DNA of 32,695 nt. Origin: Lachnospiraceae bacterium (lineage in GTDB: Bacteria > Bacillota > Clostridia > Lachnospirales > Lachnospiraceae). Each line of letters opens with the position of its first letter. The first letter of the stretch is position 1. This document shows, one piece after another, positions 3,425 through 32,695 of the stretch. The position numbers and the translations under genes are program-made. The notes below the pieces were generated by a model, which was given only the letters and a program-made list of their open reading frames with translations, was not told where the DNA came from and did not search any database. The stretch is taken from positions 1-32,695 of the forward strand of contig JAJQFO010000195.1 in NCBI GenBank assembly GCA_021201095.1, in the 5' to 3' direction.

Positions 3425-5980
3425 ATGGGAATGGATTACAGTAAGGTTTCGGAAGGAATCATCCGCGAGGATTCCTTCGAACCGCTGAAGCTGGGCAAAT
3501 GCGAGGCGATCATGAGCCTCGGCAATGGCTACATCGGCATCCGCAGCGCGACAGAGGAGCGCTATCTGCGGGAAACGAGAGGAGCCTTTGTAGCAGGTAC
3601 CTTTAATAAATTTGATGAGAATGAAGTGACGGAGCTGCCGAATGCGGCGGATATGATGGCGGTCGAGCTGACGATTGACGGGGAGCCGTTTGACCTGACC
3701 GTGGGAAGCATGGAGGGCTATACCAGGGAGCTGAATATTAAGACCGGTGAGCTGAAACGGAGTGTGATCTGGACTTCTCCGTCCGGAAAGCGCGTGTCCT
3801 ATACTTCTTACCGCGTGGTATCTCTGAAACAGCTGCACTGGATTGCGCAGCGGATCGAAGTGATGCCGCTGGATGAAGATGTGACGGTCAAAATCCGTTC
3901 TGGTATTAACGGAACGATGACTAACACCGGCAGCCAGCATTTTTCTGAGGGTGATAAGCGCTTTTATGATAAACGCTTTATCCAGTTCGTCCAGAAGACC
4001 ACGCAGTCCGGGATTGATTTTGTCAACACGACCTCGCACAAGCTGGTACTGGGCGGGAAGACCTTAGATCAGGAGGCGCAGGTGTATATTGAGCGCCGGG
4101 AAATCTTTGCCGGATACGAGGCAGAGGTAAAAGCCGGAGAGTTGCTGGAGATTGAGAAATATTCGAATGTCTATACGACGCGGGACTTTGACGCACCGCA
4201 GGTGTGTGCGGATGGAGCCGGAACTTCGGAAGATAATCCGCAGGCAGCGGTCACGGCCGGGCTGCAGAAAACAGGCCTCTCTGCCTGCAAAGAGATGGAA
4301 TCCATGGGCTATCGGAAGATCGCCGATGAGTCCGCCGATCAGTGGGAAAAAGAAGTTTGGTCCGCGGCGCCGATCCGTATTGAAGGAAAATCGAATGGCG
4401 CAGACCAGGCAAATGCTTCAGACCAGGCAAATGCCTCAGATCAGGCAGATGCTTCAGCTGGCGATGGGAAGGATGCTGCTGCATCCTGCGGGGCGTCCGC
4501 AGCTGTGGATCAGGCGCAGCTCGATCAGTTTGCGCTTTATTTCGCGCAGTATCATATGCGCGTGATGGTGCCTGCACATGACAACCGCATGAATATCGGA
4601 GCAAAGGGACTTTCCGGAGAGGGCTACAAGGGGCACTGCTTCTGGGATACGGAAATTTTCCTGCTTCCTTATTACATATTTACCAAACCGGAGATTGCGC
4701 GTAAGCTGGAGGAATACCGTTATCTGTCCCTGCCGGGCGCGCATGCCAAGGCGGCGCACAACGGCTATCAGGGCGCGATGTTCCCATGGGAGTCGGCGTG
4801 GCTGGACGACGGCGAGGTGACGCCGGAGTACTGCGACGTTGACATTCTGACCGGTCTGCCGATCAAGGTGTGGTCCGGCATCATCGAGCAGCACATCACC
4901 TCCGATGTGGCCTTTGGCGCATGGCAGTACGCAGTCATCACCGGAGATGAGCAGTTTATGGACGAATACGGCTATGAGCTGATCATGGATACCGCCTGCT
5001 TCTGGGCATCCCGCATGGAGCCCGGCGAGGACGGTTTCTACCATATCAATGATGTGGTAGGCCCGGACGAGTTCCGTGAGCATGTCAATGACAATGCGTT
5101 TACCAACTACATGGCACGCTGGAATATGAGCAAGGCCATAGAATATTATCAGATTTTAAAGGCAGAAAAGCCGGAGCTTTTTGCGAAGCTGGAGGCAAAA
5201 TGGGAGAGCCGAGCCGCAGATGGTGATGCTGCGAACAGTGGCACAGCGGACGGCGGTGTTTCTGGACATGCGCTGCAGGATGCCTGTGAAAAATGGAAGG
5301 ACGCCTGCGAGCACATCTTCCTGCCGATGCCGAACGACCAGAACGTACTTCCGCAGGACGACCGCTACCTGAGCTGCCGCGACATCGATCTGACAAAATA
5401 CAAACAGCAGGAGCATATCGGCGGCATTATGCGAGACTATAATCTGGAGCAGATCAACCAGATCCAGGTGTCCAAGCAGGCCGACGTCCTGGTGCTGTTC
5501 TTCCTGCTGGAGGATCAGTTCTCACCGGAGGTCAAGGCGGCGACCTGGAAATATTATGAGCAGAGGACGATTCACGATTCCTCCCTTTCCCTTTCGACTC
5601 ACGCGGTGCTTGCCTGCGACATGGGAGAAAAGGAGATGGCTTACGACCTGTTTCGACAGGCATCGATGATTGACCTCGGTCCATTTATGGGATCCTCCAA
5701 TATGGGAATTCATGCAGCTTCCTTCGGCGGCGTATGGCAGTGCGTGGTATACGGCTTCGGCGGCGTGCGGATGCTGGGCGGAAAGCTGCGGATCAACCCG
5801 CTGCTGCCGGATGAGTGGGAGAAATTATCCTATACCATCATCTGGAAAGGCCAGAAGCTGGCAGTGGAAGTGACGAAGGATGAGATTGTCATCGAAAACC
5901 TTACAGGAAACGCACCGGTCGAGCTGGAAGTGGCCGGACAGCCGTGCGTTTTGGAAGGGAAGATGGCGGCTTCATTATAA
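3425..5980 (+). CDS. GH65 glycoside phosphorylase/hydrolase (kojibiose/maltose phosphorylase family)
   Basis: An 851-residue cytosolic enzyme with RBS AGAGGG eight bases before ATG. The N-terminal beta-sandwich starts with the family motif GNGYIGIR. The (alpha/alpha)6 catalytic barrel includes FWDTEIF, and the general acid is E549 in GPDEFREHVNDNAFTN. The phosphate-site region QADVLVLF and a later SSLSLS motif fit a phosphorylase. Family members cleave alpha-glucosides (kojibiose, nigerose, maltose, trehalose) with phosphate to give beta-glucose 1-phosphate; which linkage applies is not readable. Two low-complexity inserts interrupt the conserved fold: codons over about 4391-4504, including three tandem 18-bp units at 4403-4456 (DQANAS, DQANAS, DQADAS), and about 5213-5272 (Ala/Gly/Asp/Ser rich). 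Both fall where relatives have short loops. A second, divergent GH65 follows. Confidence 0.88.
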   Translation: MGMDYSKVSEGIIREDSFEPLKLGKCEAIMSLGNGYIGIRSATEERYLRETRGAFVAGTFNKFDENEVTELPNAADMMAVELTIDGEPFDLTVGSMEGYTRELNIKTGELKRSVIWTSPSGKRVSYTSYRVVSLKQLHWIAQRIEVMPLDEDVTVKIRSGINGTMTNTGSQHFSEGDKRFYDKRFIQFVQKTTQSGIDFVNTTSHKLVLGGKTLDQEAQVYIERREIFAGYEAEVKAGELLEIEKYSNVYTTRDFDAPQVCADGAGTSEDNPQAAVTAGLQKTGLSACKEMESMGYRKIADESADQWEKEVWSAAPIRIEGKSNGADQANASDQANASDQADASAGDGKDAAASCGASAAVDQAQLDQFALYFAQYHMRVMVPAHDNRMNIGAKGLSGEGYKGHCFWDTEIFLLPYYIFTKPEIARKLEEYRYLSLPGAHAKAAHNGYQGAMFPWESAWLDDGEVTPEYCDVDILTGLPIKVWSGIIEQHITSDVAFGAWQYAVITGDEQFMDEYGYELIMDTACFWASRMEPGEDGFYHINDVVGPDEFREHVNDNAFTNYMARWNMSKAIEYYQILKAEKPELFAKLEAKWESRAADGDAANSGTADGGVSGHALQDACEKWKDACEHIFLPMPNDQNVLPQDDRYLSCRDIDLTKYKQQEHIGGIMRDYNLEQINQIQVSKQADVLVLFFLLEDQFSPEVKAATWKYYEQRTIHDSSLSLSTHAVLACDMGEKEMAYDLFRQASMIDLGPFMGSSNMGIHAASFGGVWQCVVYGFGGVRMLGGKLRINPLLPDEWEKLSYTIIWKGQKLAVEVTKDEIVIENLTGNAPVELEVAGQPCVLEGKMAASL
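4403..4456 (+). repeat. three 18-bp tandem repeats inside the first GH65 gene
   Basis: Units at 4403-4420, 4421-4438 and 4439-4456 differ at only a few bases and encode DQANAS, DQANAS and DQADAS. The unit is a multiple of three, so the frame is kept. They lie in an Ala/Ser/Asp/Asn/Gly-rich insert between the N-terminal sandwich and the start of the catalytic barrel. Confidence 0.9.
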
Positions 5981-6032
5981 AACAAACCGATTATGTTTTG
6001 CGGCATGCAGACTATGAAATAACGCATATGAT

Positions 6033-6079: not shown

Positions 6080-6109
6080 TGATAGCAGAAGGTACCTATG
6101 GAGGAGAAA

Positions 6110-8680
6110 ATGAGTTACGCTGGAATGTCTTTTAAGAATGATCACATCCTCATGGAGGAGGAGTACAACCTGCTTCACGAGGCAAACGTGGCCACGCTTC
6201 TGACCACCGGCAACGGCTATATGGGCGTCCGCGCCAGCCTGGAGGAGTTTTCCAGCCTTGGCATCCAAGGCTTCCTGGTGCGCGGCGTGATGGACGAAGT
6301 GGTGGAAGTGCGGCTAACCATGTGCGACAATATGTACATGAAAAAATATTATGTCGAAGAAGAACGCCTGAAAAAGTTTGAAAAGGAAGAGCGGGCGATC
6401 AACCTTCTGGATTTTCTACTGATTCGCTTTGAAATCGGCGGTGAGGTATTTTACCCGTGGGAGGGCACGGTGCACTCCTGGAAACGGTGGCTGGATCTGT
6501 CGGATGAGACGCTGCACCGCGAGGTCGTCTGGGAGAACAGCAAGGGCCAGAAGAGCCGTATTTCCTTCCAGCGGTTCGCAAGCTTCGCGGATGACCATAC
6601 CTATTGCATGAAGGCGTCCATCGAGCCGCTCAATTATTCCGATACGGTTTCCATTTACAGCGGTCTGGATCTGCGCACCAAATCCAATGGCCAGATGCCG
6701 CAGAAACCGATTGCGGCCGGTTTCGACGGACAGACGCTCTGGCAGGAGGAAATCGTCGGGCCGAAATACGGCTTCCACGCAGTCACAGGCGTCGCGCATC
6801 AGTTCAGTCAGGGCGACGCGCGCTGGGAAAATATTGACGGAGCGAAAGCATTCTTTGGCCGGGATTCGGCAGATGCTGCTCATCAGGATTCCGCAGATGT
6901 TTCTTGCCAGAATCCGGTGAATGCCGAAGGTCTGGTCATGCAGAAAATTACCTTTGAAGCCGTGCAGAATCAGTGCTATACTCTGGAAAAGCTGATTGCG
7001 ACAGTGACCAGCCGTGATTTTGAGGAGGGAAAGGTCCTCTCCGGAGGAGACCTCCTGAAAAAAAGTGATTCGCCGCAGGACTGCGTGAAAAAGTATCTGG
7101 CTGTGCTTCAGAAGAGCAGCTATGAGGCAGAATACAAAAAGCATGCACCGATTTATCAGAGACTGATGCAGAAGCTGGAGGTTTCGATCAAAGGCGATGA
7201 GACCGCCGACCGGGCGATCCGATTCTGCAACTATCACACGCTGCTGTCGATTGAGCGGAATGACTATGTGCACAGCTTTTCTGCGAAGGGCCTGACCGGA
7301 GAAATGTATAATAACTTTGTCTGGTGGGATGCGGAGATTTTCCAGGCACCCATGTTCCAGCAGACGATGCCGGAATACAGCAAAAATAATATTTTATTCC
7401 GCTATTCCCACCTGAAGGAAGCGCGGGCGCTGGCTGCGAAGGAAGGCTACAAGGGAGCGCGTTTTCCATTTACAACCGGTGTGACTGGCGATGAGACGGT
7501 GTGGATTGATGTGCGGCATCCCTTCATGCAGATTCACTGCGTATCCGATGTGGCACTGTCCGTACTGAATTATTATGTCTGCACCGGAGATGAAGTGTTC
7601 CTGAAGGAATACGGGATGGAGATCCTGCTGGAGGTCTCCCGCTACTGGGTTTCCAGAGTCATCTGGAATGCCGAAAAGGAGCGCTACGAGATCCTGCAGG
7701 TGACCGGTACGGACGAGCATCATCCGTATGTGGACAACAACGCGTATACGAATTACAGTGTCCATCATGTCCTGTCTGATACGCTGCGGCTGCTGGGGCA
7801 GTTTGGCAGCGATCTGGCCGCGCTGAAAACCAAAATCGGCTTTACGGCGGAGGATGCGGCCGCGATGGCGGACGTGGCGGCGAAGCTGTACCTGCCGCTG
7901 GATCAAAAGACCGGCATGATTCCGCAGTTTGACGGATATTTCGACCTTTCCAGAGAGCTGGAGGTACAGGGCGGCAGCAAGAGTGGCTACACGCAGATGA
8001 AGCAGGCCGGCCTCTACAACAAGAGCCAGGTCATCAAACAGCCGGATGTGCTGATGCTGTTCGCGTACCAGAATCTGGCAGACCGGGACTTAAGCGGGAC
8101 AGCGGCGGAATGCGGCAATGGCGTGAACGGAACATCGGCTGCGTGCGGCGTCGGCGGCAATGCTCCTGGAACGGGAACATTGTCTCAGGGCGAGTGGAAA
8201 GTCCCGATGCCGGCGAAGGCCTACAGCCGGAACCTGGACTACTATCAGGGACGCTGCGAGGCAGCTTCTTCCCTGTCCTACTGTGTACATTCCATCTGCT
8301 TTGCGGACATGGATATGCCGGAGAGTACTTACGGCTATCTGATGGAGACGGCGGAGATGGATCTGAAAAATATGCACGGCGGCACAGAAAACGGCGTTCA
8401 TTCCGGGTGCGCGACCGGCGCCTGGATGGCAGTCGTCCGCGGCGTGGCAGGCATGAAGATGACAGAGACCCATGTGGAATTTGATCCGCACTTTATCCCC
8501 TGGTGGGAGGAAGTGAGCTTCCACTGCGTCTGGCATGGACAGGGCTATCAGGTCACACTGTCGAATGAGGAGATCCGGGTCAGCGCGGACGTGGAGAATG
8601 AGGAAGTGCTGCCGGTGGTCATCCACCATGTGGGACAGCTTCTGAAGCCGGGTGAAACGGGGCGCAGCCTGATTTCGTAA
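6110..8680 (+). CDS. second GH65 family glycoside phosphorylase/hydrolase
   Basis: An 856-residue cytosolic enzyme. ATG 6110 is preferred because GGAGG (6100-6104) lies five bases upstream; the in-frame ATG at 6098 overlaps that RBS. GH65 hallmarks: TGNGYMGVR near the N-terminus, FVWWDAEIF in the barrel, the general acid E536 in GTDEHHPYVDNNAYTN, and KQPDVLMLF in the phosphate-site region. Sequence differences from the preceding GH65 suggest another linkage or acceptor rather than a recent duplicate. Two inserts interrupt the fold: about 6863-6928, with two 24-bp units (DSADAAHQ, DSADVSCQ), and about 8096-8190, with two 33-bp units (GTAAECGNGVN, GTSAACGVGGN). No beta-phosphoglucomutase gene, the usual partner for beta-glucose 1-phosphate, is visible nearby. 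Confidence 0.87.
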   Translation: MSYAGMSFKNDHILMEEEYNLLHEANVATLLTTGNGYMGVRASLEEFSSLGIQGFLVRGVMDEVVEVRLTMCDNMYMKKYYVEEERLKKFEKEERAINLLDFLLIRFEIGGEVFYPWEGTVHSWKRWLDLSDETLHREVVWENSKGQKSRISFQRFASFADDHTYCMKASIEPLNYSDTVSIYSGLDLRTKSNGQMPQKPIAAGFDGQTLWQEEIVGPKYGFHAVTGVAHQFSQGDARWENIDGAKAFFGRDSADAAHQDSADVSCQNPVNAEGLVMQKITFEAVQNQCYTLEKLIATVTSRDFEEGKVLSGGDLLKKSDSPQDCVKKYLAVLQKSSYEAEYKKHAPIYQRLMQKLEVSIKGDETADRAIRFCNYHTLLSIERNDYVHSFSAKGLTGEMYNNFVWWDAEIFQAPMFQQTMPEYSKNNILFRYSHLKEARALAAKEGYKGARFPFTTGVTGDETVWIDVRHPFMQIHCVSDVALSVLNYYVCTGDEVFLKEYGMEILLEVSRYWVSRVIWNAEKERYEILQVTGTDEHHPYVDNNAYTNYSVHHVLSDTLRLLGQFGSDLAALKTKIGFTAEDAAAMADVAAKLYLPLDQKTGMIPQFDGYFDLSRELEVQGGSKSGYTQMKQAGLYNKSQVIKQPDVLMLFAYQNLADRDLSGTAAECGNGVNGTSAACGVGGNAPGTGTLSQGEWKVPMPAKAYSRNLDYYQGRCEAASSLSYCVHSICFADMDMPESTYGYLMETAEMDLKNMHGGTENGVHSGCATGAWMAVVRGVAGMKMTETHVEFDPHFIPWWEEVSFHCVWHGQGYQVTLSNEEIRVSADVENEEVLPVVIHHVGQLLKPGETGRSLIS
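6863..6910 (+). repeat. two 24-bp tandem repeats inside the second GH65 gene
   Basis: Units 6863-6886 and 6887-6910 encode DSADAAHQ and DSADVSCQ. They form most of a low-complexity insert in the N-terminal domain and keep the frame. Confidence 0.8.
8096..8161 (+). repeat. two 33-bp repeats inside the second GH65 gene
   Basis: Units 8096-8128 and 8129-8161 encode GTAAECGNGVN and GTSAACGVGGN. A further Gly/Thr-rich stretch continues to about 8190. The insert lies just after the conserved KQPDVLMLF region of the GH65 barrel. Confidence 0.75.
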
Positions 8681-8800
8681 GGATGTCAGATCTGTGAAAA
8701 AAATTAGCAGGTGGAAACATTGTAAATGAAAATAAAATGGATACAAAATCTGCTGATAAAAAACTTGTCGGTAAAGATTTGACTGGCAAAGATTTTAAAT

Positions 8801-8930: not shown

Positions 8931-9048
8931 GTTGAATTCTGTCTCAAGGGATGCTTGATATTCAGGCAGGATCAGACAGGAGAAGCCCTGCAGCAGGGAT
9001 CATATGAAGTCGTTTATCGAAAAAAATATAGATGAAAGGGGATGCATC

Positions 9049-11814
9049 ATGAAATCAACAAAATGGAACGAAAACTGGATGTTCTGGGAGGACAAGGACT
9101 CCTTCGCGCTGGTCTGGAACGTACCGGAAACTGCGAGGAAGGTCACACTTCCGCATGACGCGATGCTGGAGCGCCGCGCTTATGCCGGGAGCCCGAATAT
9201 GGGAAACACCGGATTCCGGGACGGCGGGATCTATTGCTACGTGAAAAACCTGTATGTACCGGAGAGCGCAAAAGAAAAGCTTCTGATGCTGAAATTTGAA
9301 GGCGTCTATATGAACGCGATGGTCTATGTGAACAGCCAGCTGGCGGGAAAAAATATGTTCGGCTATTCGACCTTTTATGTACCGCTGAATGATCTGATCA
9401 AATATGGTGAGGATAACGAGATCCGTGTGCAGGTGCGCAACAGCGGCATGACAAACAGCCGCTGGTATTCCGGCAGCGGAATTTACCGGGACGTGTATCT
9501 GCTGGAATCAGAGCAGACCTATCTGGTGCCGGAGGGAATCCGCGTGACGACGGAATCCGTGGATGGCGGTGTTTCCGGCAGCACGAACACTTGCGTGGCT
9601 GACGATGCAAATAGCAGCGCAAATGGCGGTGTGAACGGCAATGGAAATAGTTGTGCGAATGACAGCTGCGCGGTGATCAAGGTTACTTCCGAATTGAAAA
9701 ATCTGCGTCCCGCGCCTGCAGATCTGATGCTGGAGACGGTGATCCGCGACGGAGCAGGGACGGAGGTTGCCAGAGAGCATGCGGCTGTCATGCTGTTCGG
9801 GCAGGAGGAGAGAACCCTTTCTCAGAGAATTGCGGTAGCCAATCCGCAGCTCTGGTCGGATGAGAACCCGGCACTTTATACGTATGAAATTGTGTTGTTT
9901 GAAAATTCGTCTGCCAGGAGAAATGCATCGAAATCAGATGATTCTGCTGCAAATTCCGGAGAAGCTGGAGATAGCGGTAACGGCACGTCGGCGGCAGATA
10001 CGAGGGTCGTATTGGATTCCGAATCCGGCACCTTCGGCATCCGCACCTTACAGCTGGACGCGAAGCATGGCTTGCGGGTAAACGGCAGAAGCGTGAAGCT
10101 GCGCGGAGCCTGTGTACACCACGACTCCGGACTGCTCGGTGCCGCGACCTTTGAAGAATTCCATCTGCGCCAGGCAAAAATCCTGAAGGAAGCCGGATTT
10201 AACGCGGTCCGTTCTTCTCATCAGCCGATGGCTCCGGCCATGCTGAAGGCCTGCGATGAAGTGGGTATCTACGTGATGGACGAGTTTTCTGATATGTGGA
10301 ACCGCATGAAATCCGACCTGGACTACGGTCTTTACTTCCAGGAGTGGTGGGAGAAGGATGTGACGGCGATGGTGCGCCGCGACTACAATCACCCCTGCGT
10401 CGTGCTGTACTCAATCGGCAACGAAATTCCGGAGATCGGCAGTGATGCTGGCGCGAAAATCTGCTATGAGATGAACAAAAAGTTCAAAGAACTGGACAGC
10501 ACCCGCTATACCACCGCCGGAATCAACGGTGTCTTTGCGGCCGGAGACCGGATTGGTGAGATCATGGCAGATCTGACGAAGGACTCTTCGGAAGCAGGAG
10601 CTTCGGATGGAGAGGATGCTCCGGCAGCGGGCGGCAATGTCAACGATTTTATGACGATGATGGATACCCGCATGAATGACATCGTCGTCCACCGTGCGAT
10701 TTCCGATAAGCTTGAAAAAGCCTGCGCTTATCTGGATGTCGCCGGATACAATTACATGACCGCGCGCTATGAGCGGGATGCAAAGGACTATCCGAACCGT
10801 GTCATCGTAGGCAGCGAAACCTACCCGCCTGACATCGCCAGAAACTGGGGCATTATCAAAAACGCCTCCCACGTCATCGGCGACTTCACCTGGACTGGCT
10901 GGGACTACATCGGCGAAGCAGGTGTGGGCATTCCGGCTTACCACTGGGGCGAAGGCGGATTCGGCGCAGAATTCCCGGCACAGCTGGCTTACTGCGGCGA
11001 CATCGATATCACCGGCAGAAGAAGACCGGCGTCATACTACAGAGAATGCGTCTTCGGTCTCCGCGAAGAGCCGTACATCGCCGTGCAGAATCCGCGCCAT
11101 TACGGCGAGCCGCTGATCAAGACCCCCTGGGTCATCAGCGACGCGACCCCGTCCTGGACCTGGGAGGGCTGTGAGGGCAAGCCAGTAATCGTCGAGGTCT
11201 ACGCACCTGGCGATGAAGTGGAATTATTTGTAAACGGCAAATCCGTCGGCAGGAAGCCGAGCGGAGAGGCCGCAGGCTATCGGACTCTTTTCGAAACCAC
11301 CTACGAGCCGGGGACAGTGACGGCAGTGGTGTATAAAAAAGATGGTGCAGGTGCGAAAGCCGGAGTCCAGGCAGCCCCCAATGCCAAAGAAGAAACAGCG
11401 GCAGCTGGCGGCAGCGAGGCAGATGCGGCAGGGACAGATTTGACCAGGGCAGTTGCTGCCGCCGCAGCGCAGACTGAACTTCATACCGCAGCGGCACCGG
11501 CACAGCTGGCACTTACCTGCGAGGATACCGCAAAAGATGAGCTTCTGTTTATTGACGTGCAGCTGCTCGACGCTGCGGGCACTCTGGCAACCGGCGCAGA
11601 GGGCAGACTGAAGGCAGAAGTCTCCGGCGGAGCCGTCCTGGCCGGATTCGGAAGCGGCAATCCGAAGCCGGATTACAACTATCTTGACGGAGTCGCCGAC
11701 ACCTGGGGCGCAACGGCGCTGTTGATTCTTCGAAAGACCGGCACCGGGGAGGCTGTTCGGGTGAAAGTGTGCACCGAGGATGGACTCACGGGAGAGCTGG
11801 AGATAGAGGGATAA
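9049..11814 (+). CDS. GH2 family glycosidase (beta-galactosidase-like, DUF4982-type C-terminus)
   Basis: A 921-residue protein starting at ATG 9049, seven bases after the AAAGGGG RBS (9035-9041). There is no signal peptide. Domains in order: GH2 sugar-binding jelly roll (about 1-170), Ig-like sandwich, TIM barrel with acid/base E459 (SIGNEIPE) and nucleophile E590 (VIVGSETYP), and a C-terminal Ig-like DUF4982-type region (VELFVNGKSVGRK). It should hydrolyse a beta-galactoside, beta-glucuronide or related bond; the sugar is not determined. Four low-complexity inserts interrupt it: 9562-9672, 9904-10002, 10582-10638 and about 11341-11505, rich in Ala, Gly, Ser, Asn and Asp. The third lengthens the interval between the catalytic glutamates to 131 residues. 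It is the last gene before a strong terminator. Confidence 0.87.
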   Translation: MKSTKWNENWMFWEDKDSFALVWNVPETARKVTLPHDAMLERRAYAGSPNMGNTGFRDGGIYCYVKNLYVPESAKEKLLMLKFEGVYMNAMVYVNSQLAGKNMFGYSTFYVPLNDLIKYGEDNEIRVQVRNSGMTNSRWYSGSGIYRDVYLLESEQTYLVPEGIRVTTESVDGGVSGSTNTCVADDANSSANGGVNGNGNSCANDSCAVIKVTSELKNLRPAPADLMLETVIRDGAGTEVAREHAAVMLFGQEERTLSQRIAVANPQLWSDENPALYTYEIVLFENSSARRNASKSDDSAANSGEAGDSGNGTSAADTRVVLDSESGTFGIRTLQLDAKHGLRVNGRSVKLRGACVHHDSGLLGAATFEEFHLRQAKILKEAGFNAVRSSHQPMAPAMLKACDEVGIYVMDEFSDMWNRMKSDLDYGLYFQEWWEKDVTAMVRRDYNHPCVVLYSIGNEIPEIGSDAGAKICYEMNKKFKELDSTRYTTAGINGVFAAGDRIGEIMADLTKDSSEAGASDGEDAPAAGGNVNDFMTMMDTRMNDIVVHRAISDKLEKACAYLDVAGYNYMTARYERDAKDYPNRVIVGSETYPPDIARNWGIIKNASHVIGDFTWTGWDYIGEAGVGIPAYHWGEGGFGAEFPAQLAYCGDIDITGRRRPASYYRECVFGLREEPYIAVQNPRHYGEPLIKTPWVISDATPSWTWEGCEGKPVIVEVYAPGDEVELFVNGKSVGRKPSGEAAGYRTLFETTYEPGTVTAVVYKKDGAGAKAGVQAAPNAKEETAAAGGSEADAAGTDLTRAVAAAAAQTELHTAAAPAQLALTCEDTAKDELLFIDVQLLDAAGTLATGAEGRLKAEVSGGAVLAGFGSGNPKPDYNYLDGVADTWGATALLILRKTGTGEAVRVKVCTEDGLTGELEIEG
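9562..9663 (+). repeat. two 42-bp repeats inside the GH2 gene
   Basis: Unit 1 (9562-9603) encodes DGGVSGSTNTCVAD and unit 2 (9622-9663) encodes NGGVNGNGNSCAND, separated by six codons (9604-9621). The start of unit 1 (17 bases at 9562-9578) matches 5249-5265 in the first GH65 gene at 15 of 17 positions, both encoding DGGVSG. Confidence 0.75.
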
Positions 11815-12824: not shown

Positions 12825-12869
12825 GTGGATAATATCGAGAGCAGAATAAGCAGATGGGAGGGCTCTGTT

Positions 12870-14624
12870 ATGCTGAAAAAAGTTGCGCTGGGCATTACTG
12901 ACTTTGAAGATATCATAGGCAGAAATGTATTTTATGTAGATAAGACGTATTTTATCAGAGACTGGTATAACAGCGCGGATCAGGTGACGCTGATTACCCG
13001 TCCAAGGCGGTTTGGAAAAACCCTGACTTTGAACATGGTGGAGACCTTTTTTTCCATACGCTTTCATGATCGAAAAGACTTGTTCGAGGGACTTTCCATT
13101 TGGAAAGAGGAGGAATTCAGAGAGCTTCAGGGGGCGGTTCCTGTCATCAATTTCAGTCTTGCAAATATCAAACAGGACACTTATGAAAGTATGTGCTATG
13201 TGATGCGGACGATGCTCTCTATGCTGTTCAGAAGGCATTCTTATTTGCTGGAATCAGATAAGCTGTCGGAATTTGAAAAGGAAAAGTTTTCAGACATTCT
13301 CTGTGAAAAAGCTTCTGATGAGGACAGCATGAGTGCTATTTTGTTTCTTTCCCAGTGTATGTATGAGCATTTTGGGAAAAAGGTAATGATTCTGATTGAT
13401 GAGTATGACACTCCCATGCTGGAGGCTTACACTGCGGGTTATTGGGAAGAGGCGATTAAATATATTCGCCGCATGTTCCATGCCGCGTTTAAAGATAATC
13501 CATGGCTGGATCGCGGATTGATGACCGGAATAACAAGAATTACTCAGGAATCCATTTTTTCGGATTTGAATAACCTATCGGTAGTGACAACTACTACGGA
13601 GCGCTTTGAAGAAAGCTTTGGTTTCACGGAAGGTGAGGTTTTTGATGCTCTGGAAAACTATGGATTTTCTGACCGCAAGGAAGTAGTAAAAAACTGGTAT
13701 GATGGGTTTCAATTTGGAAAGAAAAAAGGCATTTATAATCCATGGTCGATTCTGAATTTTCTGAAAAACGGAAACCTAAAGCCCTACTGGATGAATACCA
13801 GCGGAAATGCCCTGGTCGGCAAGCTGGTGCAGGAAGGCTCTCTGCGCATTAAGGATGAATTTGAAACGCTGCTGCAGGGCGGCTCTATCGTGACAAAGAT
13901 TGATGAATCCATTACTTACGCGGAGCTTTCCAACGATTCGAAGACAGTCTGGAGCTGGTTTTTGACTACTGGCTACGTAAAAATTGTGCAGGAACGCGAA
14001 AAAGATTATGAAATACAGCTGACAAATTATGAAGTGCGGGAAGCTTTTTACCACCTGGTCGAGAAATGGTTTGCCAGATCCTATGATAACTATACCGGAT
14101 TTATCGAGATGCTTCTCAAGGGAAATCTGGAAGGCATGCAGCGGTATATGGAAAAAGTGACGCTTCGGACCTTCAGTTATTTTGATGTGGGCAGTGCTAC
14201 CTCGGAAAGCGAGATGGCAGAGCAGTTTTATCATGGATTTACACTGGGACTGATTGCCGATCTGAATGATACGCATATCCTGACATCCAACAGAGAATAT
14301 GGAAACGCCCCCTCGCTTTGCTCGGCGGCAGGTCGAGCCGCCCATTCCGATGCGCTTCGCGCAGGGCGGCTCTGCGGTTTTGGACGCTACGATGTGTCGA
14401 TTGAGCCGCTGGATAAAACACAGGACGGCATTATTATCGAGTTTAAGGTGTTTGATCCTAAAAAAGAGAAGACCCTGGACGATACGACCAGGCGGGCTCT
14501 TGATCAGATCCGCGATATGAAATATGAGACGGATCTGAAGGCAAGAGGAATCCGCAGGGTCCGAAAATACGGGTTCGCTTTTCGGGGAAAGGAAGTATTG
14601 ATTGAAGAGGAAAAGGAACAGTGA
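12870..14624 (+). CDS. AAA-ATPase-like / PD-(D/E)XK nuclease family protein
   Basis: A 584-residue protein. ATG 12870, eight bases after GGGAGG, is preferred over an in-frame ATG at 12825 that abuts the -10 box. The N-terminal domain is the AAA-ATPase-like family with RPRRFGKT (44-51) as nucleotide-binding loop and MILIDEYDTPM as Walker B. The C-terminal domain is a PD-(D/E)XK fold: D508 in GRYDV and E524-F-K526 in IIEFK. The family is multicopy in gut bacteria and its function is unresolved; it is often thought to be selfish or defence-related. Between NREYG and GFGRYDV, just before the first nuclease residue, sits an in-frame insert of about 24 codons (14304-14375) that is a GC-rich palindromic element. 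Confidence 0.85.
   Translation: MLKKVALGITDFEDIIGRNVFYVDKTYFIRDWYNSADQVTLITRPRRFGKTLTLNMVETFFSIRFHDRKDLFEGLSIWKEEEFRELQGAVPVINFSLANIKQDTYESMCYVMRTMLSMLFRRHSYLLESDKLSEFEKEKFSDILCEKASDEDSMSAILFLSQCMYEHFGKKVMILIDEYDTPMLEAYTAGYWEEAIKYIRRMFHAAFKDNPWLDRGLMTGITRITQESIFSDLNNLSVVTTTTERFEESFGFTEGEVFDALENYGFSDRKEVVKNWYDGFQFGKKKGIYNPWSILNFLKNGNLKPYWMNTSGNALVGKLVQEGSLRIKDEFETLLQGGSIVTKIDESITYAELSNDSKTVWSWFLTTGYVKIVQEREKDYEIQLTNYEVREAFYHLVEKWFARSYDNYTGFIEMLLKGNLEGMQRYMEKVTLRTFSYFDVGSATSESEMAEQFYHGFTLGLIADLNDTHILTSNREYGNAPSLCSAAGRAAHSDALRAGRLCGFGRYDVSIEPLDKTQDGIIIEFKVFDPKKEKTLDDTTRRALDQIRDMKYETDLKARGIRRVRKYGFAFRGKEVLIEEEKEQ
14304..14375 (+). repeat. in-frame palindromic repeat element inside the AAA-ATPase/nuclease gene
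   Basis: Outer arms GAGCCGCCC (14335-14343) and GGGCGGCTC (14364-14372) are perfectly complementary. Between them TGCGC-TTC-GCGCA (14351-14363) forms an inner hairpin. The sequence is much richer in GC than the surrounding gene. It resembles the reverse complement of 26441-26505 between the substrate-binding protein and permease genes, sharing CCCCTC, TCGGCGGCAG and the CGCT/CGCG region in the same order. Removing 24 codons would restore a typical short loop before GRYDV. Confidence 0.7.
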
Positions 14625-17642: not shown

Positions 17643-19220
17643 ATGGCGATACCAACGAATATAAAAACATTATTGTCCGGGAATGTTGTGGAATGGGCAA
17701 GAATTGAATTTAAAGAAACATGGGATGCCGCAGCTTCTCTCAAGACTGTGTGCGCGTTTGCAAATGATCTGGACAATTGGGGAGGCGGCTATATTGTTAT
17801 CGGAGTACAGGAAAAGGACGGTCGGCCACAATATCCTTTGAAGGGAGTCGCGCCAGATAGAATCGACTCCTACCAGAAAGATATCCTGGAAAAGTGCAAA
17901 TTGATCAGGCCGTCCTATCTTCCGATTGCTGAAGTTGTGGAATATAATGACAGACAATTTATTATTCTCTGGTGTCCGGGAGGAGACAGCAGACCGTATT
18001 CCTCGCCAAAGACGATGAAAAAAGATAATAAGGAGCGCATCCACTATATACGGAAGTTATCCAGCACAGTGGAGCCATCCAGCGATGAGGAGCGGGATTT
18101 GTTTAGTCTTGCGAACCGGATACCTTTCGATGATCGGGTGAATCATCAGGCTGAGATTGCGGATCTGAATATCACTCTGGTTCAGGAATATTTAAAAGAG
18201 GTGAACAGTTCTCTTTATGAGAAAGCAATGACCGGAGATTTTATTGAGGTATGCAGAGACATGAATATTATCAGCGATCTTCCGGAATACAGAAAGCCCA
18301 AAAATATTGGTTTGATGTTTTTTAGCATGGAACCGGATAAGTTTTTCCCATATACACAGATAGATGTTGTCATGTTTCCCAAAGGACTGGGCGGAGATCA
18401 AATTATTGAGCAGACCTTTAAAGGCCCGATTCATGATATGCTCAGGAATGCTTTGCGCTATATCAGAAACATGGTCATATCGGAAATGGTAGTAAAACAC
18501 GAGGACAGAGCAGAAGCAGATCGGTTTTTTAATTATCCATTTGCTGCGATTGAGGAAAGTCTGTCAAATGCCGTCTATCATCGTGCGTATGATGAGCGTG
18601 AGCCGATTGAAGTTCGCGTGGAGAATGACCGAATCGAAATATTGAGTTTTCCAGGACCAGATCGTTCCGTCACCCCGGAAGGCTTAAAGAATTACCGTGT
18701 GACCAATCGCAGATACAGGAACCGCAGAATCGGAGATTTCCTGAAAGAGCTTCATCTTACAGAAGGGCGGAATACGGGATTTAAAAAGATTTTGGATGCG
18801 CTTGAAAAGAATGGTTCGCCGCAACCGGAGTTTGAGACAGACGAAAGCAGAAGTTATTTTATTACAAGATTGTTCATACATGAGGATTTTTTGAAAAAAG
18901 AAAGAATTCAGGAAGGCAGGTCCTCAGACGGGCAGGATAGTGCAGGTTTCATCGTAACAACTGATGAGAAAAAAACGGGTCAGGAGAATGACCGAAGTTT
19001 GACCGAAGTTTTGACCGAAGTTTTGACTGAAGTGAACATGAAAAAAGTAGCACCCCTGGTGGAATTCATTGAGGAAAATGGTCAGATTTCCCCAAAGGAG
19101 GCAGCAAAGCTTCTGGGAAAATCAGCGTCTACGGTATATCGATATCTTTCTTTGCTAACGCAGACAGGTTTAATTGTGAAGGACGGAAATACGAATAATA
19201 TTGTGTATCGGCCGGCCTGA
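17643..19220 (+). CDS. AlbA_2 (Schlafen-like) / GHKL ATP-binding protein with winged-helix C-terminus
   Basis: A 525-residue protein. The N-terminal AlbA_2 domain includes EFKETWD and the GGGYIVIGV strand. The middle carries a RecG-C-like GHKL ATPase region (FAAIEESLSNAVYHR, then IEILSFPGP and GRNTGFKKI). The end (about 455-525) is a winged helix-turn-helix, ISPKEAAKLLGKSASTVYRYL. Such proteins are usually called transcriptional regulators or ATP-binding proteins of unclear function. A linker before the HTH holds repeated LTEV units coded by 11- and 12-bp repeats (18990-19036). The ribosome binding site is weak (GGGG, nine bases before ATG). It does not look co-transcribed with the DUF4143 gene, which ends 111 bases earlier. 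Confidence 0.83.
   Translation: MAIPTNIKTLLSGNVVEWARIEFKETWDAAASLKTVCAFANDLDNWGGGYIVIGVQEKDGRPQYPLKGVAPDRIDSYQKDILEKCKLIRPSYLPIAEVVEYNDRQFIILWCPGGDSRPYSSPKTMKKDNKERIHYIRKLSSTVEPSSDEERDLFSLANRIPFDDRVNHQAEIADLNITLVQEYLKEVNSSLYEKAMTGDFIEVCRDMNIISDLPEYRKPKNIGLMFFSMEPDKFFPYTQIDVVMFPKGLGGDQIIEQTFKGPIHDMLRNALRYIRNMVISEMVVKHEDRAEADRFFNYPFAAIEESLSNAVYHRAYDEREPIEVRVENDRIEILSFPGPDRSVTPEGLKNYRVTNRRYRNRRIGDFLKELHLTEGRNTGFKKILDALEKNGSPQPEFETDESRSYFITRLFIHEDFLKKERIQEGRSSDGQDSAGFIVTTDEKKTGQENDRSLTEVLTEVLTEVNMKKVAPLVEFIEENGQISPKEAAKLLGKSASTVYRYLSLLTQTGLIVKDGNTNNIVYRPA
18990..19036 (+). repeat. 11/12-bp tandem repeats coding LTEV units
   Basis: Units are GACCGAAGTTT (18990-19000, 11 bases), GACCGAAGTTTT (19001-19012 and 19013-19024) and a degenerate GACTGAAGTGAA (19025-19036). 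The first unit is one base shorter, so it is read in a different frame from the others. Confidence 0.85.
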
Positions 19221-26396: not shown

Positions 26397-26401
26397 TTAT
26401 T

Positions 26402-26535
26402 GTCGTCACTCGCAGAGTGACGACGAAGGCCGCGCCCGCGCCGTTCCAACGCGCAGCGTTTTATCATGAACGGCGCAAGCTGCCGCCGACCGCAAGGGAG
26501 GGGCATTTCCACAGCCCTTGCGCGAAGCGCAGGGC
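26402..26535. repeat. GC-rich multi-hairpin element between binding protein and permease 2
   Basis: Three hairpins in series. GTCGTCACTC (26402-26411) pairs perfectly with GAGTGACGAC (26415-26424) over a GCA loop. GCCGTTC (26440-26446) pairs with GAACGGC (26468-26474), enclosing AACGC-GCA-GCGTT (26448-26460). GCCCTTGCGC and GCGCAGGGC (26514-26535) pair with one bulge; GCGCAAG (26473-26479) can also pair with CTTGCGC (26517-26523). No T-tract follows. The central 26441-26505 stretch, reversed, resembles the element inside the AAA-ATPase/nuclease gene. In place it may protect the binding-protein mRNA from 3' decay. Confidence 0.75.
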
Positions 26536-27615: not shown

Positions 27616-27634
27616 GGATACGGAGGAATACCAG

Positions 27635-29080: not shown

Positions 29081-29275
29081 GATCCCGCAGCTCTTCGAAA
29101 ATCATAGCGGATGAAAAAGTGCCAGGCACATCGAAGACAATAGCAGATGGGAAGCCTACAATTATATCAATCGATCATAGCGGACGAACTGTGAGGTGCC
29201 GCCCTGGATGGTTGAAAGATCAACCATTCGGGCGGCACAAGATTATAATTGATAGTATCGGATGGGAAAAGAATT
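29081..29275 (+). promoter_or_regulatory. control region of the GH78 gene with a two-tier hairpin
   Basis: An outer stem GTGCCGCCC (29196-29204) / GGGCGGCAC (29230-29238) encloses an inner stem ATGGTTGA (29208-29215) / TCAACCAT (29220-29227) with loop AAGA. The inner stem matches the palindrome before the GH3 gene. TATAAT (29244-29249) follows, within TATAATTGATAG, but no -35 at 17 bases is evident. Upstream, a degenerate motif ATAGC(G/A)GA(T/C)G recurs near 29104, 29139 and 29176, about 36 bases apart. The GH78 RBS is weak (GGGAAAAG). Confidence 0.6.
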
Positions 29276-32200
29276 ATGTCATTTCAAATCAGTGAAGTCA
29301 GAGTAAATCAGATGATAGACCCGCTGGGACTGGACGAGAGGGAGCCGGTGTTTTCCTGGAAGTTTCAGTCTGATGAGCCGGGCATGCACCAGAAGCGGGC
29401 GAGAGTGCAGGTGCGCAGAAGCGACAGCGGCGAAATCTGTTGGGACACCGGCGTGCTGGAGACCGACCGTTCCATCGGCATCCGTTATGCGGGAAAAGCT
29501 CTGTGCGCGGAGACGGCATACAAGGTGCTGGTTACCGCGTGGAATCAGGATGGGGAATCGGACGCGGCGGCGGGCTGCTTTGAGACAGGGCTGCTGGATT
29601 CGTCCATGAAGGCCTGGGAAGGCGCCCGGTGGATCGGTGCGCCGGAATATTCGGTGGCGAGCGAGACGGTCAGCGTTTTCGTGCTGGAAAGTACGATTTG
29701 CGTGCAAAAGGGCGACCGCGCGGGGATTGTGTTTGGAGCCAATGATCCGAGGCTGCAGGATATGGAGAAGAATGAACTGGGGCTGGCCGGAGAAAATTAT
29801 TTCAGCTATGTGCTGAACATCGGGACGAACCCTGCGAACGTGGAGATTTATCGAGTAGGGTATGACCGTGCCGACCGGGCGGATGTGCCGCTGGCAGTCA
29901 TTCCGGTGGTTGGAATGGAGACCGGGGAGCGCATCCTTACCGAAGAAAATAAAAGAGAACCGCATAAGCTGACCGTCGAGGTCTGCGGAAATACGGCCTA
30001 TGCTTATGTGGATGGGATCAAAATCGACGAGGTTGAGCAGCAGACATTCTTCGGTACCGTGAAAGGGCCGAGAACCCTGAACCCGCTGGGCTCTACGGAT
30101 GTGACAACCTATCCGAGACTTTGTGAGATCGGATATTACGCCGGGAAAGGGACACGGGCATCCTTTGACGGGCTGCGCGTGCGGAACCTGCGGAAGCCAT
30201 GTGCGGAAATTGTTTCGCTGGATACGGAGCAGGGAAAAATATTGGATGCGGAACAGTGGAATGTTCCGGGTGAGGCGCTGGATACAGAGCAGGGGAAGAT
30301 TCTGGACGCGTCAGTGGATGCGGCTCAGGGGAAGGCTCAGTGCGAGTCGTTGGATACAGAACATGGGAAGGCTTCAGACGAGACCTCAAATGCAGCAATG
30401 CATGGGGAAATATTGGAGGACGGAGCCGGTGGCGTGATGGAAATAACGGATCCGTCGAAGCATTCCATTCCCATGCTGCGCCGGGAATTTCAGGCCTCGA
30501 GGCAGATCAAATCAGCCAGACTCTATGCGACGGCAAGAGGAATCTATGAGTGCCGGATCAACGGACAGCTGGTGTCGGGGGAGTATTTCGCTCCCGGCGA
30601 CAGCCAGTATGACAAGCATCTGTATTACCAGACCTATGATGTGACGAAGCTGATTCGCGAGGGAAGCAATGCGATTGGCTGCATCCTGGCATCCGGCTGG
30701 TGGAGCGATTCGATTACCTATACTTTATCGAATTACAATTACTGGGGCGACCGGATGAGCTTTCTTTGCAAGCTGGTGCTGCACTATGAGGACGGCACCA
30801 GAGACGTGATTACAACCAACGCCCGGGAATGGCAGTATTACGGAGAAGGCCCTTATCGATTTGCCGGATTTTTTAACGGAGAACAGTATGACGCCCGCAA
30901 AGCCGGAATCTGGGAGCAGTTTTCCATGCCTGGCTTTTCCATCGAAGGATGGAAATGTCCGGAAATCATTGCGCCAGTGTTTATCGAAGAAAACCGGACA
31001 GCGATGCCGCCCTGGCCAGCAGTGAATGCCACGGAGCCGGAGCTGGTCGGGAGTTATCAGGCTCCTGTGCGGGAGGCGGAGGTTTTTACTGCAAAGTCCA
31101 TGGCGGAGCCTGCAAAGGGAATCTATATTTATGATCTGGGGCAGGAGATCGCAGGTGTGCCTCGCATCCGGCTGCATGGGAAGGAAGGACAGCGCGTGGT
31201 GCTGCGCTTTGCGGAGATGCTTTATCCGGACAAAGCGGAATACGGCGCTCTGGCGGGAAGACTTCTGCAGGCAAATCTGCGGGAGGCATCGAACATTGAC
31301 GTCTATATCTGCGCAGGTAGAGAAGAAGAAGTATATCAGCCGCGGTTTACCTTCCATGGATATCGATATATTGAGATCAGCGGCCTTGAGGAGCCTTCGG
31401 CACTGGAAGATGTGCAGAGCATTTTGCTCTCGAGCGTGCCGCAGCTAACCGGCAGCTTCTGCTGCAGCGATGAGCTGGTGAACCGGCTGGTATCTAATGT
31501 GGGCTATAGTCAGCAGTGCAATTTTATCAGCATCCCGACCGATTGTCCGCAGCGAAACGAGCGCATGGGCTGGGTCGGCGATACGCATGTTTTCTGCAAA
31601 GCCGCCGGTTATCAGTGCGATACAAAGAATTTTTATCTGCGCTATCTGGATATGATGCGCGATCTGCAGACGGAAAACGGCCGGCTGCCAGACATTGCCC
31701 CGATCGGCGGAGGCTTTGGCGGGATCACCTATGAGAGCGCGATGATCCTGATGGTATGGGAGCTTTACCAGCAATATGGAGATCCGGATGTGATCCGGGA
31801 ATACTATGACGCGATGGACCGCTGGATGACGGCGATCGCTGCGACCGGACTGCCGGGGATGATGGCGGATTTCGGCCTGGGCGACTGGCTGGCCATGGAA
31901 GAGACCGACAACCAGCTGATCTGGAACGCTTTCTACTACAGAGATGCGAAGAGGATGGAAACCTACGCAACGGTTCTGGGAAAGGAACAGGACGCGGAAA
32001 AATATGCCAGGATCGCTGCTCAGACTAAGAAATTCTGGAATGAGACATTTCTGGAGCCGGAGACCGGACGGACGCTGACGGCGGACGGGAAGCTTTGCGA
32101 CACGCAGGGAAGCTATGCGATCGCATTGAGCTGCGGCGTGTATCGGGAAGCGGATAAAAGTACAGATCAGGAAGCAGAACTGAGCGAGTATCAAAATGCG

Positions 32201-32695
32201 GAACAGGAAACGGAGCTGGGCGTGTCTCGGAATGCAGAACGGGGATCGGAGCTGGGCGTGTCTCGGAATGTAGAACGGGGATCGAAGCAGGGCGTGTCTC
32301 GGAACGTGGATCGGGAGGCAAACCTGGAAATATCCCGGAAAATCGATCCAGAAGCCTGTCTGGAGCCATACAAGGAAACATGCAAGAAAATATATAAGCA
32401 GCAGGCATACGCGCATCTGGACCGCAAGGTTCGGGAAAGCGGTTACACCGTACAGACCGGATTTTTCGGCACCGGCGTGCTGAACGCGATGCTGAGCGCG
32501 GGCGGATACGAGGAAACTGCGGGACGGCTGCTCACCTCCACCGCTTACCCCGGATGGCTCTATCCGGTTACTCAGGGGGCGACAACCGTCTGGGAGCGCT
32601 GGAACAGCTATACGGAGGCGGACGGATTTGGCAGCAATAACGCCATGAATAGCTTTAACCATTATTCACTGGGCAGCGTCATTACCTGGCTTTAC
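29276..32695 (+). CDS. GH78 alpha-L-rhamnosidase (3' end beyond window)
   Basis: An open frame from ATG 29276 runs 1140 codons to the window edge without a stop. The N-terminus has the rhamnosidase sandwich domains (a laminin-G-like segment includes GIKIDEVEQQTFFGTV), and the (alpha/alpha)6 barrel follows. The general acid is E762 in DCPQRNERMGWVGD, ADFGLGDWL is present, and the general base is E1107 in TVWERWN, so the active site is complete. No signal peptide is present. It should release L-rhamnose from plant or bacterial glycosides. Two insert zones break the fold: about 30218-30420, with repeats of LDTEQGKILDA, and 32165-32374, with 36-bp repeats coding ELGVSRN units. Relatives have only a short loop at the second site. 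Few residues are missing at the end. Confidence 0.88.
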   Translation, partial: MSFQISEVRVNQMIDPLGLDEREPVFSWKFQSDEPGMHQKRARVQVRRSDSGEICWDTGVLETDRSIGIRYAGKALCAETAYKVLVTAWNQDGESDAAAGCFETGLLDSSMKAWEGARWIGAPEYSVASETVSVFVLESTICVQKGDRAGIVFGANDPRLQDMEKNELGLAGENYFSYVLNIGTNPANVEIYRVGYDRADRADVPLAVIPVVGMETGERILTEENKREPHKLTVEVCGNTAYAYVDGIKIDEVEQQTFFGTVKGPRTLNPLGSTDVTTYPRLCEIGYYAGKGTRASFDGLRVRNLRKPCAEIVSLDTEQGKILDAEQWNVPGEALDTEQGKILDASVDAAQGKAQCESLDTEHGKASDETSNAAMHGEILEDGAGGVMEITDPSKHSIPMLRREFQASRQIKSARLYATARGIYECRINGQLVSGEYFAPGDSQYDKHLYYQTYDVTKLIREGSNAIGCILASGWWSDSITYTLSNYNYWGDRMSFLCKLVLHYEDGTRDVITTNAREWQYYGEGPYRFAGFFNGEQYDARKAGIWEQFSMPGFSIEGWKCPEIIAPVFIEENRTAMPPWPAVNATEPELVGSYQAPVREAEVFTAKSMAEPAKGIYIYDLGQEIAGVPRIRLHGKEGQRVVLRFAEMLYPDKAEYGALAGRLLQANLREASNIDVYICAGREEEVYQPRFTFHGYRYIEISGLEEPSALEDVQSILLSSVPQLTGSFCCSDELVNRLVSNVGYSQQCNFISIPTDCPQRNERMGWVGDTHVFCKAAGYQCDTKNFYLRYLDMMRDLQTENGRLPDIAPIGGGFGGITYESAMILMVWELYQQYGDPDVIREYYDAMDRWMTAIAATGLPGMMADFGLGDWLAMEETDNQLIWNAFYYRDAKRMETYATVLGKEQDAEKYARIAAQTKKFWNETFLEPETGRTLTADGKLCDTQGSYAIALSCGVYREADKSTDQEAELSEYQNAEQETELGVSRNAERGSELGVSRNVERGSKQGVSRNVDREANLEISRKIDPEACLEPYKETCKKIYKQQAYAHLDRKVRESGYTVQTGFFGTGVLNAMLSAGGYEETAGRLLTSTAYPGWLYPVTQGATTVWERWNSYTEADGFGSNNAMNSFNHYSLGSVITWLY
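30218..30370 (+). repeat. dispersed 33-bp repeat units in the GH78 N-terminal half
   Basis: Units at 30218-30250 and 30278-30310 both encode LDTEQGKILDA, 60 bases apart. A third, shorter copy at 30350 encodes LDTEHGKA. The units are codon-multiples and lie in a Glu/Asp/Gly/Ala-rich insert before the conserved LRREFQ strand. Confidence 0.8.
32165..32374 (+). repeat. 36-bp tandem repeats in the GH78 barrel
   Basis: Five contiguous 36-base units start at 32165, 32201, 32237, 32273 and 32309, plus a partial sixth at 32345. Units 2 to 4 are nearly identical (GVSRN core); units 1, 5 and 6 are diverged. They insert about 65 charged residues between the conserved GSYAIAL helix and the TGFFGTGVL helix of the catalytic barrel. 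Confidence 0.92.

Follow-up and report, generated by a model that had tools for sequence, protein, structure and literature searches.

Insert-bearing genes of the window

The stretch of DNA analysed here (the window, 32,695 nucleotides from a Lachnospiraceae bacterium) carries two GH65 genes, a GH2 gene and a GH78 gene in which insert sites were found, together with two copies of a palindromic element (Table 1). The top solved match of the first GH65 protein in a PDB comparison is the kojibiose phosphorylase 3wiq. Alignment to homologues upheld the view of a first-pass annotation that in-frame, low-complexity loops have been added to otherwise conserved enzymes. The inserts are polar and of low complexity, differ even between 95%-identical orthologues, and probably sit in surface loops. 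As that annotation had anticipated, three GH65 inserts are absent from the more distant homologues in a 23-protein alignment, and copy number varies between close relatives, the DQANAS repeat of GH65 gene 1 being shorter by one 6-aa unit in L031 than in the window.

Table 1. Positions of genes, inserts, tandem arrays and palindromic elements in the window
Feature	Position	Strand	Description	Evidence
GH65 gene 1	3425..5980	+	851 aa, three insert sites	Pfam PF03632/PF03636/PF03633; 23-protein alignment
GH65 gene 1 insert	4196..4255	+	PQVCADGAGTSEDNPQAAVT; variable among L031-L038, none in remaining aligned homologues	
GH65 gene 1 insert	4388..4507	+	18-bp tandem repeat (DQANAS units)	TRF 4401-4457, alignment, p=0.005
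GH65 gene 1 insert	5207..5275	+	SRAADGDAANSGTADGGVSGHAL; in window and L032-L035, missing from L031, the nearest relative	
GH65 gene 2	6098..8680	+	860 aa	Pfam
GH65 gene 2 insert	6851..6931	+	24-bp repeat; L031 version 24 aa longer	
GH65 gene 2 insert	8090..8200	+	Borderline 33-bp repeat	Alignment, codon-shuffle test
GH2 gene	9004..11814	+	936 aa, four insert sites	Pfam, alignment
GH2 insert	9565..9675	+	Asn/Gly/Ser/Cys-rich; clear 36-bp duplication at this site in L032 orthologue	Alignment
GH2 insert	9904..10008	+	Common to window and L032; absent from L031, though closer	Alignment
GH2 insert	10582..10641	+	Length very variable among relatives	Alignment
GH2 insert	11341..11493	+	Ala-rich	Alignment
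Arrays outside called genes	11856 and 16077			TRF
AAA-ATPase-like/PDDEXK_9 gene	12825..14624	+	599 aa; holds in-frame palindromic element	Pfam PF09820, PF08011
Palindromic element	14301..14377	+	GNAPSLCSAAGRAAHSDALRAGRLCG; in-frame in AAA-ATPase gene	CM R1, 81.4 bits
Array in Schlafen/AlbA_2 gene	18989-19033		12 bp x3.8	TRF
Palindromic element, second copy	26433..26510	-	Intergenic	CM R1, 77.7 bits
GH78 alpha-L-rhamnosidase-like gene	29249..32695	+	Interrupted by contig end	Pfam
GH78 insert	30212..30436	+	Repeated DTEQGKILDA-like units	Repeat register, codon-shuffle test
GH78 insert	32150..32383	+	36-bp tandem repeat	TRF; p=0.005

Six tandem duplications had been claimed in these genes. When reexamined with TRF (score 30 listing) and codon shuffles, four beat the codon-shuffled controls, one was borderline, and one failed. 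The 18-bp unit reported three times at 4403 was recovered by TRF as 3.2 copies with a score of 93. In GH78, the 36-bp period at 32165 is real (TRF, 3.1 copies, score 171, 32195-32304) and its register spans 32163-32306, but about four copies are clear rather than the five described. The 33-bp repeat placed at 30218/30278 is also real, as 35 nt at 83% from 30216/30276, but its spacing is 60; positions 30243-30370 keep a 36-nt register throughout, and the whole segment scores above its shuffled versions, with a best shift of 72 (p=0.005). Two further repeats are weak and missing from the TRF listing at score 30: the 24-bp repeat at 6863, which nevertheless exceeds its 200 codon shuffles (p=0.005), and the 33-bp repeat at 8096 (p=0.05). 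The 42-bp pair in GH2 at 9562/9622 could not be sustained, its two places lying 60 apart with p=0.30 and a best shift of 36. By codon shuffles, 6 of the 11 insert segments of the window have no significant internal repeat.

That other genes of the window lack repeats holds for the GH3 and MBL neighbors, in which no gap of at least 4 aa was seen among the homologues shown (12 each), but not for the Schlafen/AlbA_2 gene with its array, the arrays outside genes, or the AAA-ATPase gene with its element. The periods are, as stated earlier, multiples of three; every one of the 10 segments at p<=0.05 conforms, as do 29/32 coding arrays versus 9/21 noncoding ones across 449 kb of genome sequence. Intragenic variable-number tandem repeats and contingency loci also have tandem units in coding DNA whose copy number varies, whereas the hosts here are soluble enzymes. 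Since the repeat units are multiples of three, there is no on/off switching, and a phase-variable contingency locus working by frame shift is excluded for these 10 periods. A proposed "strain-variable code" found nothing in its favor in our between-species comparisons.

Length changes across the subclade

What had been taken for a genome-specific process is a trait of seven species, whose genomes form a monophyletic subclade in an ArgS tree (support 1.000). The window belongs to this subclade, which is part of a Lachnospiraceae-like genus. Per 1000 aligned residues there are 2.2 internal indels of at least 5 aa in these genomes and 0.14 in sister species (210 in 95,399 aligned aa of subclade pairs versus 17 in 120,784 of sister pairs). 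Of the 1187 reciprocal best pairs, the 993 with a length ratio of >=0.6 and an identity of >=0.55 were used, and only indels lying 20 residues from protein ends were counted; the comparison covers one syntenic region plus extensions. The rate is higher in the subclade in each of four identity bins, and 9 of 11 gene families are higher, with none lower and two ties (Wilcoxon p=0.004). Between subclade and sisters, the subclade protein is the longer one at 430 of 445 indels. Every named subclade relative encountered is, to judge by its title, a metagenome assembly. Inserted sequence is enriched in S, A, G, and P and depleted in Y, F, I, and L.

Nor are the inserts restricted to large catabolic glycosidases; ArgS, IspE, SipL, and NAD synthase (NadE) carry them too, and essential enzymes are among those affected. 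Insert residues in IspE number 7 to 55 in all seven subclade genomes and 0 to 1 in the genomes shown from outside it, 10 of the same genus and 6 of other families, with a usable ORF shown at 23 of 30 loci for IspE and 27 of 30 for ArgS. Outside the subclade, G007 has a 25-aa ArgS insert; L046 has an insert at a fourth GH65 site. The inserts are lineage-specific, polar, of low complexity, and mostly gains, found in essential and catabolic enzymes alike and differing between orthologues of 85 to 95% identity. We regard metagenome assembly or binning artefacts as a highly improbable source: repeats are difficult to assemble, and the window genome comes in 362 contigs with 5.35% contamination, but the inserts are in-frame, partly common to genomes with records of their own (L031-L038), gathered in one clade, and for the most part nonrepetitive.

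Simple densities do not mark the lineage. Tandem-repeat density was rejected as a signature, the window genome having 8.3 coding arrays per 100 kb, within the range of eight other genomes (1.1 to 9.2). Low-complexity density is noisy, and in proteins classed as soluble by a crude filter the subclade and sister values overlap: 5.75 per 10,000 aa in the window genome, 3.36 and 8.63 in subclade genomes G010 and G013, and 2.35 and 4.95 in sisters G017 and G024. By the same filter, four other families gave 0 to 0.96 and the named loci L050-L071 gave 3.8.

A palindromic element within reading frames

The element in the AAA-ATPase gene also matches the Rfam family GA-cis (RF02987) on the minus strand, at 14297-14377 with 53.7 bits (gathering threshold, 34.7); two homologues of 36% identity are shorter by 25 aa at this site. 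Thirteen copies in ten loci likewise score above gathering for RF02987, the element here lying on the strand opposite to the RNA. Each of the seven subclade genomes has 27 to 68 copies of this 78-bp sequence, and G021 has 82, compared with 0 to 2 in 17 other same-genus genomes and none in 16 others; these counts are lower bounds, as at most 114 candidates were scored per genome. In the window genome, the element is dispersed, with 42 copies at E<=1e-5. Over 11 copies, 10 of the 19 predicted pairs of the hairpin have changed on both sides.

Among 37 full-length copies borne on ORFs, 35 are sense and 2 antisense, and 29 of the 35 share one phase; the encoded peptide is conserved. The copies come from 53 distinct full-length copies at loci L288-L346, which are best matches rather than a random sample. 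With partial copies included, the window genome by itself is more mixed in frame and strand (14 sense, 7 antisense, of which 2 are not in a called gene, and 9 outside ORFs; n=30), and the in-frame copy of the window is in a minority frame. Orthologues with empty sites were found for two L293 sites, L294, HlyD-like L291 and L300 (26 codons), and GH78 of L031 (28 aa). NadE has an empty site too, the element lying inside a longer insert, and PheT and HflX (NCBIfam names) are further hosts. A minority of the inserts are shown to be copies of this GA-cis-type element, which would be read through as protein sequence.

One could imagine that most or all inserts are decayed palindromic elements, of GA-cis type and other dispersed families, their low complexity being wreckage. 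The element is amplified in the same subclade that is rich in inserts, the G013 NadE gene has an element with duplicated flanks within one 77-column insert, a HlyD-like protein has one adjoining a variable low-complexity stretch, and two window segments fold better than shuffles (z of -2.6 and -2.2). We nevertheless think this unlikely. With filters off, the GH65, GH2, and GH78 inserts of the window reach at most 12 bits (E 0.47 at 11392-11467, a GH2 insert), and they are not dispersed in a 449-kb sample of the 4.83-Mb genome. Their mean folding z is -0.46 (11 inserts) against -0.54 for 60 controls. The element matches only 2 of 51 sampled block inserts, and just 2 of the 47 named loci (824 kb) contain it, despite the insert-rich L032-L038. 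A dispersed motif guessed from one G013 insert is present in that gene only.

Constraint, sources, and meaning of the inserts

The inserts evolve under relaxed constraint. By a rough estimate, dN/dS is 0.33 to 0.38 in window inserts and 0.05 to 0.06 in the core, a difference of about sixfold. Between genomes sharing 400 or more codons in proteins of >=80% identity, core dN/dS is 0.053 to 0.078 in the subclade and 0.037 to 0.124 in the sisters, with many dS values above 1, and so shows no rise in the subclade. That result counts against a global relaxation of selection, as in a small population, whereby neutral inserts would pile up at an unchanged insertion rate. Such relaxation would agree with essential genes tolerating inserts, but the GH3, MBL, and GntR genes have no such indels, and we consider it very unlikely. 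Loss of MutS1 or SbcD, a possible cause, was not seen in the window genome, G000, which has both genes. Among the seven subclade genomes, G008 is the sole case with no MutS1 match over the cutoff.

Hydrophilic linkers might instead be selected, for example for enzyme solubility, stability, or oligomer contacts. In favor are an insert dN/dS below 1 and the mostly single orientation and phase of the ORF-borne elements, though antisense frames are open in 25 to 30 of the 37. Insert sequence and length, however, are not kept between 85 to 95% identical orthologues, unrelated enzymes are affected alike, and the roughly sixfold excess over core dN/dS points the same way; we doubt that adaptation is the explanation.

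The reading we favor, and think reasonably probable, is that short in-frame insertions into loops of soluble proteins arise, or stay, more than 10-fold more often in the subclade than in its sisters, with slipped duplication and short elements as sources. We imagine that this mutational source would yield length changes of all phases, that frame-shifting ones would be purged while in-frame ones persist where a loop tolerates them, and that the survivors would diverge fast under weak constraint, blurring their origin. A minority of the inserts did grow through in-frame tandem duplication (18, 24, and 36 bp). As the general origin proposed earlier, duplication does not suffice, since it is visible in a minority only: 5 of 38 block inserts have internal repeats at p<=0.05, close to the control rate of 5 of 60 segments. 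Of 175 indel events, some of which overlap, 28 (16%) outscore all 40 shuffles in similarity to their flanking sequence, and 24% beat 95% of them. The pattern is explicable without any benefit to the cell. Removal by splicing or bypass may be considered; in-frame, stop-free inserts would fit translation. A broader proposal, that the lineage acquired a heritable process inserting in-frame sequence in the loops of a large share of its proteome on a Rickettsia-like scale, with the translated GA-cis element as one agent, we offer more tentatively.

Rickettsia palindromic elements (RPEs), as presented in the available part of a 2024 review (PMC10969869), are also short, palindromic, dispersed, and in-frame in unrelated genes, with a conserved peptide. 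They are about 150 bp long rather than 78 bp, and the likeness drawn here is one of features; RPEs belong to Rickettsia, whereas the element here belongs to a Firmicutes-type lineage and accounts for few of its inserts. The same part of the review treats ORFs of intragenic MITEs (ERIC, BOX, and others) that fuse in-frame with genomic ORFs as not unusual, ascribes a comparable frequency of in-frame elements to RPEs only, and allows that prokaryotes other than Rickettsia might conceivably keep palindromic DNA as protein. The low-complexity regions described for prokaryotic proteins (PMC6821194) are the same kind of stretch, but that paper, in the part available, stresses conserved, functional regions, while the inserts here are hypervariable and lineage-specific. 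Among the matches listed in open-licence literature, neither the insert trait nor the translated element is described for Lachnospiraceae.

Rfam types RF02987 as "Gene; sRNA," whereas here it is amplified in the subclade and often lies within ORFs; of eight GA-cis copies examined from other genera, none is inside a called gene, most being intergenic or overlapping the end of a gene. The element suggests that, in this lineage at least, a family curated as RNA is mobile DNA translated as protein, and it adds to the cases in which the retention of palindromic mobile DNA as protein sequence can be tested. The gap of more than 10-fold in in-frame indels between subclade and sisters of one genus offers a way to study what governs the frequency of loop insertion in bacteria. 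If the broader proposal is true, mobile DNA and duplication would remodel proteins without destroying genes, to an extent credited until now to the Rickettsia elements.

In-frame inserts in the glycosidases of the window

The genome (G000) comprises 4.83 Mb in 362 contigs, and the window is one entire contig (G000:C19). Pfam upheld the identities given to the insert-bearing catabolic enzymes in the first-pass annotation, namely GH65 twice, GH2 and GH78. Short tandem duplications had been claimed for each of these enzymes. When each insert segment was compared with 200 codon shuffles, internal repetition reached p<=0.05 in 5 of the 11 segments of the window, and the repeats described in both GH65 genes and in GH78 were recovered; the 42-bp pair described in GH2 was not (see table).

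In a search with GH65 gene 1, the closest named relatives found carry titles of Lachnospiraceae or Clostridiales metagenome assemblies. A 23-protein alignment placed the inserts of this gene at residues 258, 322 and 595; they occur only in the window and in loci L031-L038, where they are variable, and are missing from Petralouisia, Blautia and other homologues. At a fourth site, 11 aa are present in locus L046. In L031, the nearest relative at 95% identity, the DQANAS array is one unit shorter than in the window and the insert at 595 is missing. GH65 gene 2 and GH2 follow the same pattern at six further sites, differing from L031 by 11 to 24 aa. The window and L032 share a nearly identical GH2 insert that is absent from the closer relative L031, and thus loss or recombination also happens. 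The GH3 and MBL genes of the same locus were correctly described as free of inserts: across the 12 homologues printed for each gene, no gap reaches 4 aa.

Features located in the window and in compared genomes
Location	Feature	Observation
Window 4401-4457	GH65 gene 1, 18-bp array	TRF; p<=0.05
Window	GH65 gene 2, 24-bp and 33-bp repeats	each p<=0.05
Window 9565-9675	GH2, segment of 42-bp pair	no significant internal repeat, p=0.30
Window 9904-10008	GH2 insert shared with L032
Window 14297-14377	element copy, GA-cis match on minus strand	inside AAA-ATPase gene, in-frame as element
Window 18989-19033	Schlafen/AlbA_2-type gene	in-frame 12-bp x3.8 repeat, LTEV units
Window 30216-30370	GH78, repeat near 30218	units from repeat search; segment p<=0.05
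Window 32195-32304	GH78, 36-bp array	TRF; p<=0.05
G000:C316:15828-16976	MutS2-like match	open frame 1167 aa vs 795-827 in eight sister genomes
L285 1879-5808	GH2 enzyme of G008	five ENAARL-type peptide motif matches in one protein
L287 3699-3882	Cobalamin riboswitch (RF00174)	downstream of NAD synthase gene of G013

Inserts across a subclade

The process had been proposed to be genome specific and confined to large glycosidases, and neither restriction survived. In a syntenic block compared across nine same-genus genomes, ArgS (TIGR00456), IspE (TIGR00154), SipL and another GH3 carry variable inserts; two ABC transporters, a CdaR-type regulator, a GntR regulator and MalQ have few or none. Across a 449-kb genome sample, a crude filter found polar low-complexity segments inside 32 of 203 soluble ORFs, although a masked stretch accounts for one of the 32 and a few others resemble spurious ORFs. 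Pfam could name ten of them, among which are a RecD2-type helicase, two helicase-associated proteins and a second GH78.

The inserts extend across a subclade of seven genomes (G000, G001, G008, G010, G013, G014 and G015) that cluster in the ArgS tree with support of 1.000. All seven have 7 to 55 insert residues in IspE, compared to 0 or 1 in the 16 other genomes shown. In ArgS, inserts of at least 4 consecutive residues were seen in five of the seven; outside the subclade they occurred in a single same-genus genome out of 13 (G007, 25 aa) and a single genome out of 7 from other families (5 aa). Reciprocal-best pairs contained 210 internal indels of >=5 aa per 95,399 aligned residues when drawn from the subclade, against 17 per 120,784 when drawn from its same-genus sisters; the subclade rate was higher in all four identity bins and, by gene family, higher in 9 of 11 and lower in none. 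Where subclade and sister proteins were paired, the subclade protein was the longer one in 430 of 445 indels.

An unplanned check of sub-cut-off matches to the MutS1 model, which we read as MutS2-like, showed a break at model position 667/668 in six subclade genomes out of seven; the eight sister genomes with comparable matches had no such split. G008 has nothing above the MutS1 family threshold, though this genome is listed as 98% complete.

For the GH65 and GH2 genes of the window against three relatives, dN/dS was 0.05 to 0.06 in the core and 0.33 to 0.38 in the inserts, the latter values being rough due to uncertain alignment; dS was likewise raised in the inserts. Core dN/dS showed no rise in the subclade (0.053 to 0.078, compared to 0.037 to 0.124 in sisters, with many dS values >1). 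These values tell against selection having been lost generally, and for loops under weak constraint.

A palindromic element read as protein

A survey of repeats in the same genome sample revealed several families of dispersed palindromic repeats, mainly intergenic, with some in ORFs (further families in G000 lie at L078, L080, L081, L085, L086, L087, L144 and L145). One element of about 78 bp has a conserved hairpin in an alignment of 11 copies, with both-side changes in at least one copy at 10 of 19 predicted pairs. Some copies are longer, at about 118 bp, and apparently contain another palindrome. On the opposite strand the element corresponds to Rfam GA-cis (RF02987), which is present in 6 of 295 genomes of the order, G000 among them; eight copies from the other genomes were examined, and not one lies inside a called gene. 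The Rfam 15 paper mentions GA-cis in a table only. A model search (E<=0.001) found at least 27 to 68 copies in each subclade genome and at least 82 in G021, which is not on the ArgS tree. Of 17 other same-genus genomes, two had copies (1 and 2), and the 16 genomes of other families had none.

Within ORFs of 150 aa or more lie 37 of 53 distinct full-length copies, 35 sense and 2 antisense; 29 of the 35 share one phase, giving a peptide close to [VE]ETPPRxxSAAxRxxxAENAxRxxxA. This sense bias exists despite antisense frames being open in 25 to 30 of the 37. In G000 alone, with partial copies included (n=30), the bias is weaker and frames are mixed (14 sense, 7 antisense, 9 outside ORFs). Host genes encode NAD synthase, PheT, HflX, GH78, GH2, GH115, a solute-binding protein and a radical SAM protein. 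In orthologues the site is empty over 26 codons (28 in GH78), and the three DNA junctions read are 78 bp each, with target duplication absent in two and a two-base ambiguity in the third.

The closest precedent for such a translated element is the RPEs of Rickettsia. Passages of a 2024 MITE review (PMC10969869) describe in-frame fusion of intragenic MITEs as not unusual, credit RPEs with an unusually high frequency of it, and judge that other prokaryotes could conceivably host a similar process.

Relation of the element to the inserts

Both inserts and element mark the same subclade, yet the element explains only 2 of 51 inserts sampled from the syntenic block and none of those in the window's GH genes; it occurs in 2 of 47 named loci, several of which are rich in inserts. 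We therefore treat them as two agents in one insertion-prone lineage, insertion of the element and a commoner process. The readable traces of this commoner process would be the in-frame tandem duplications.
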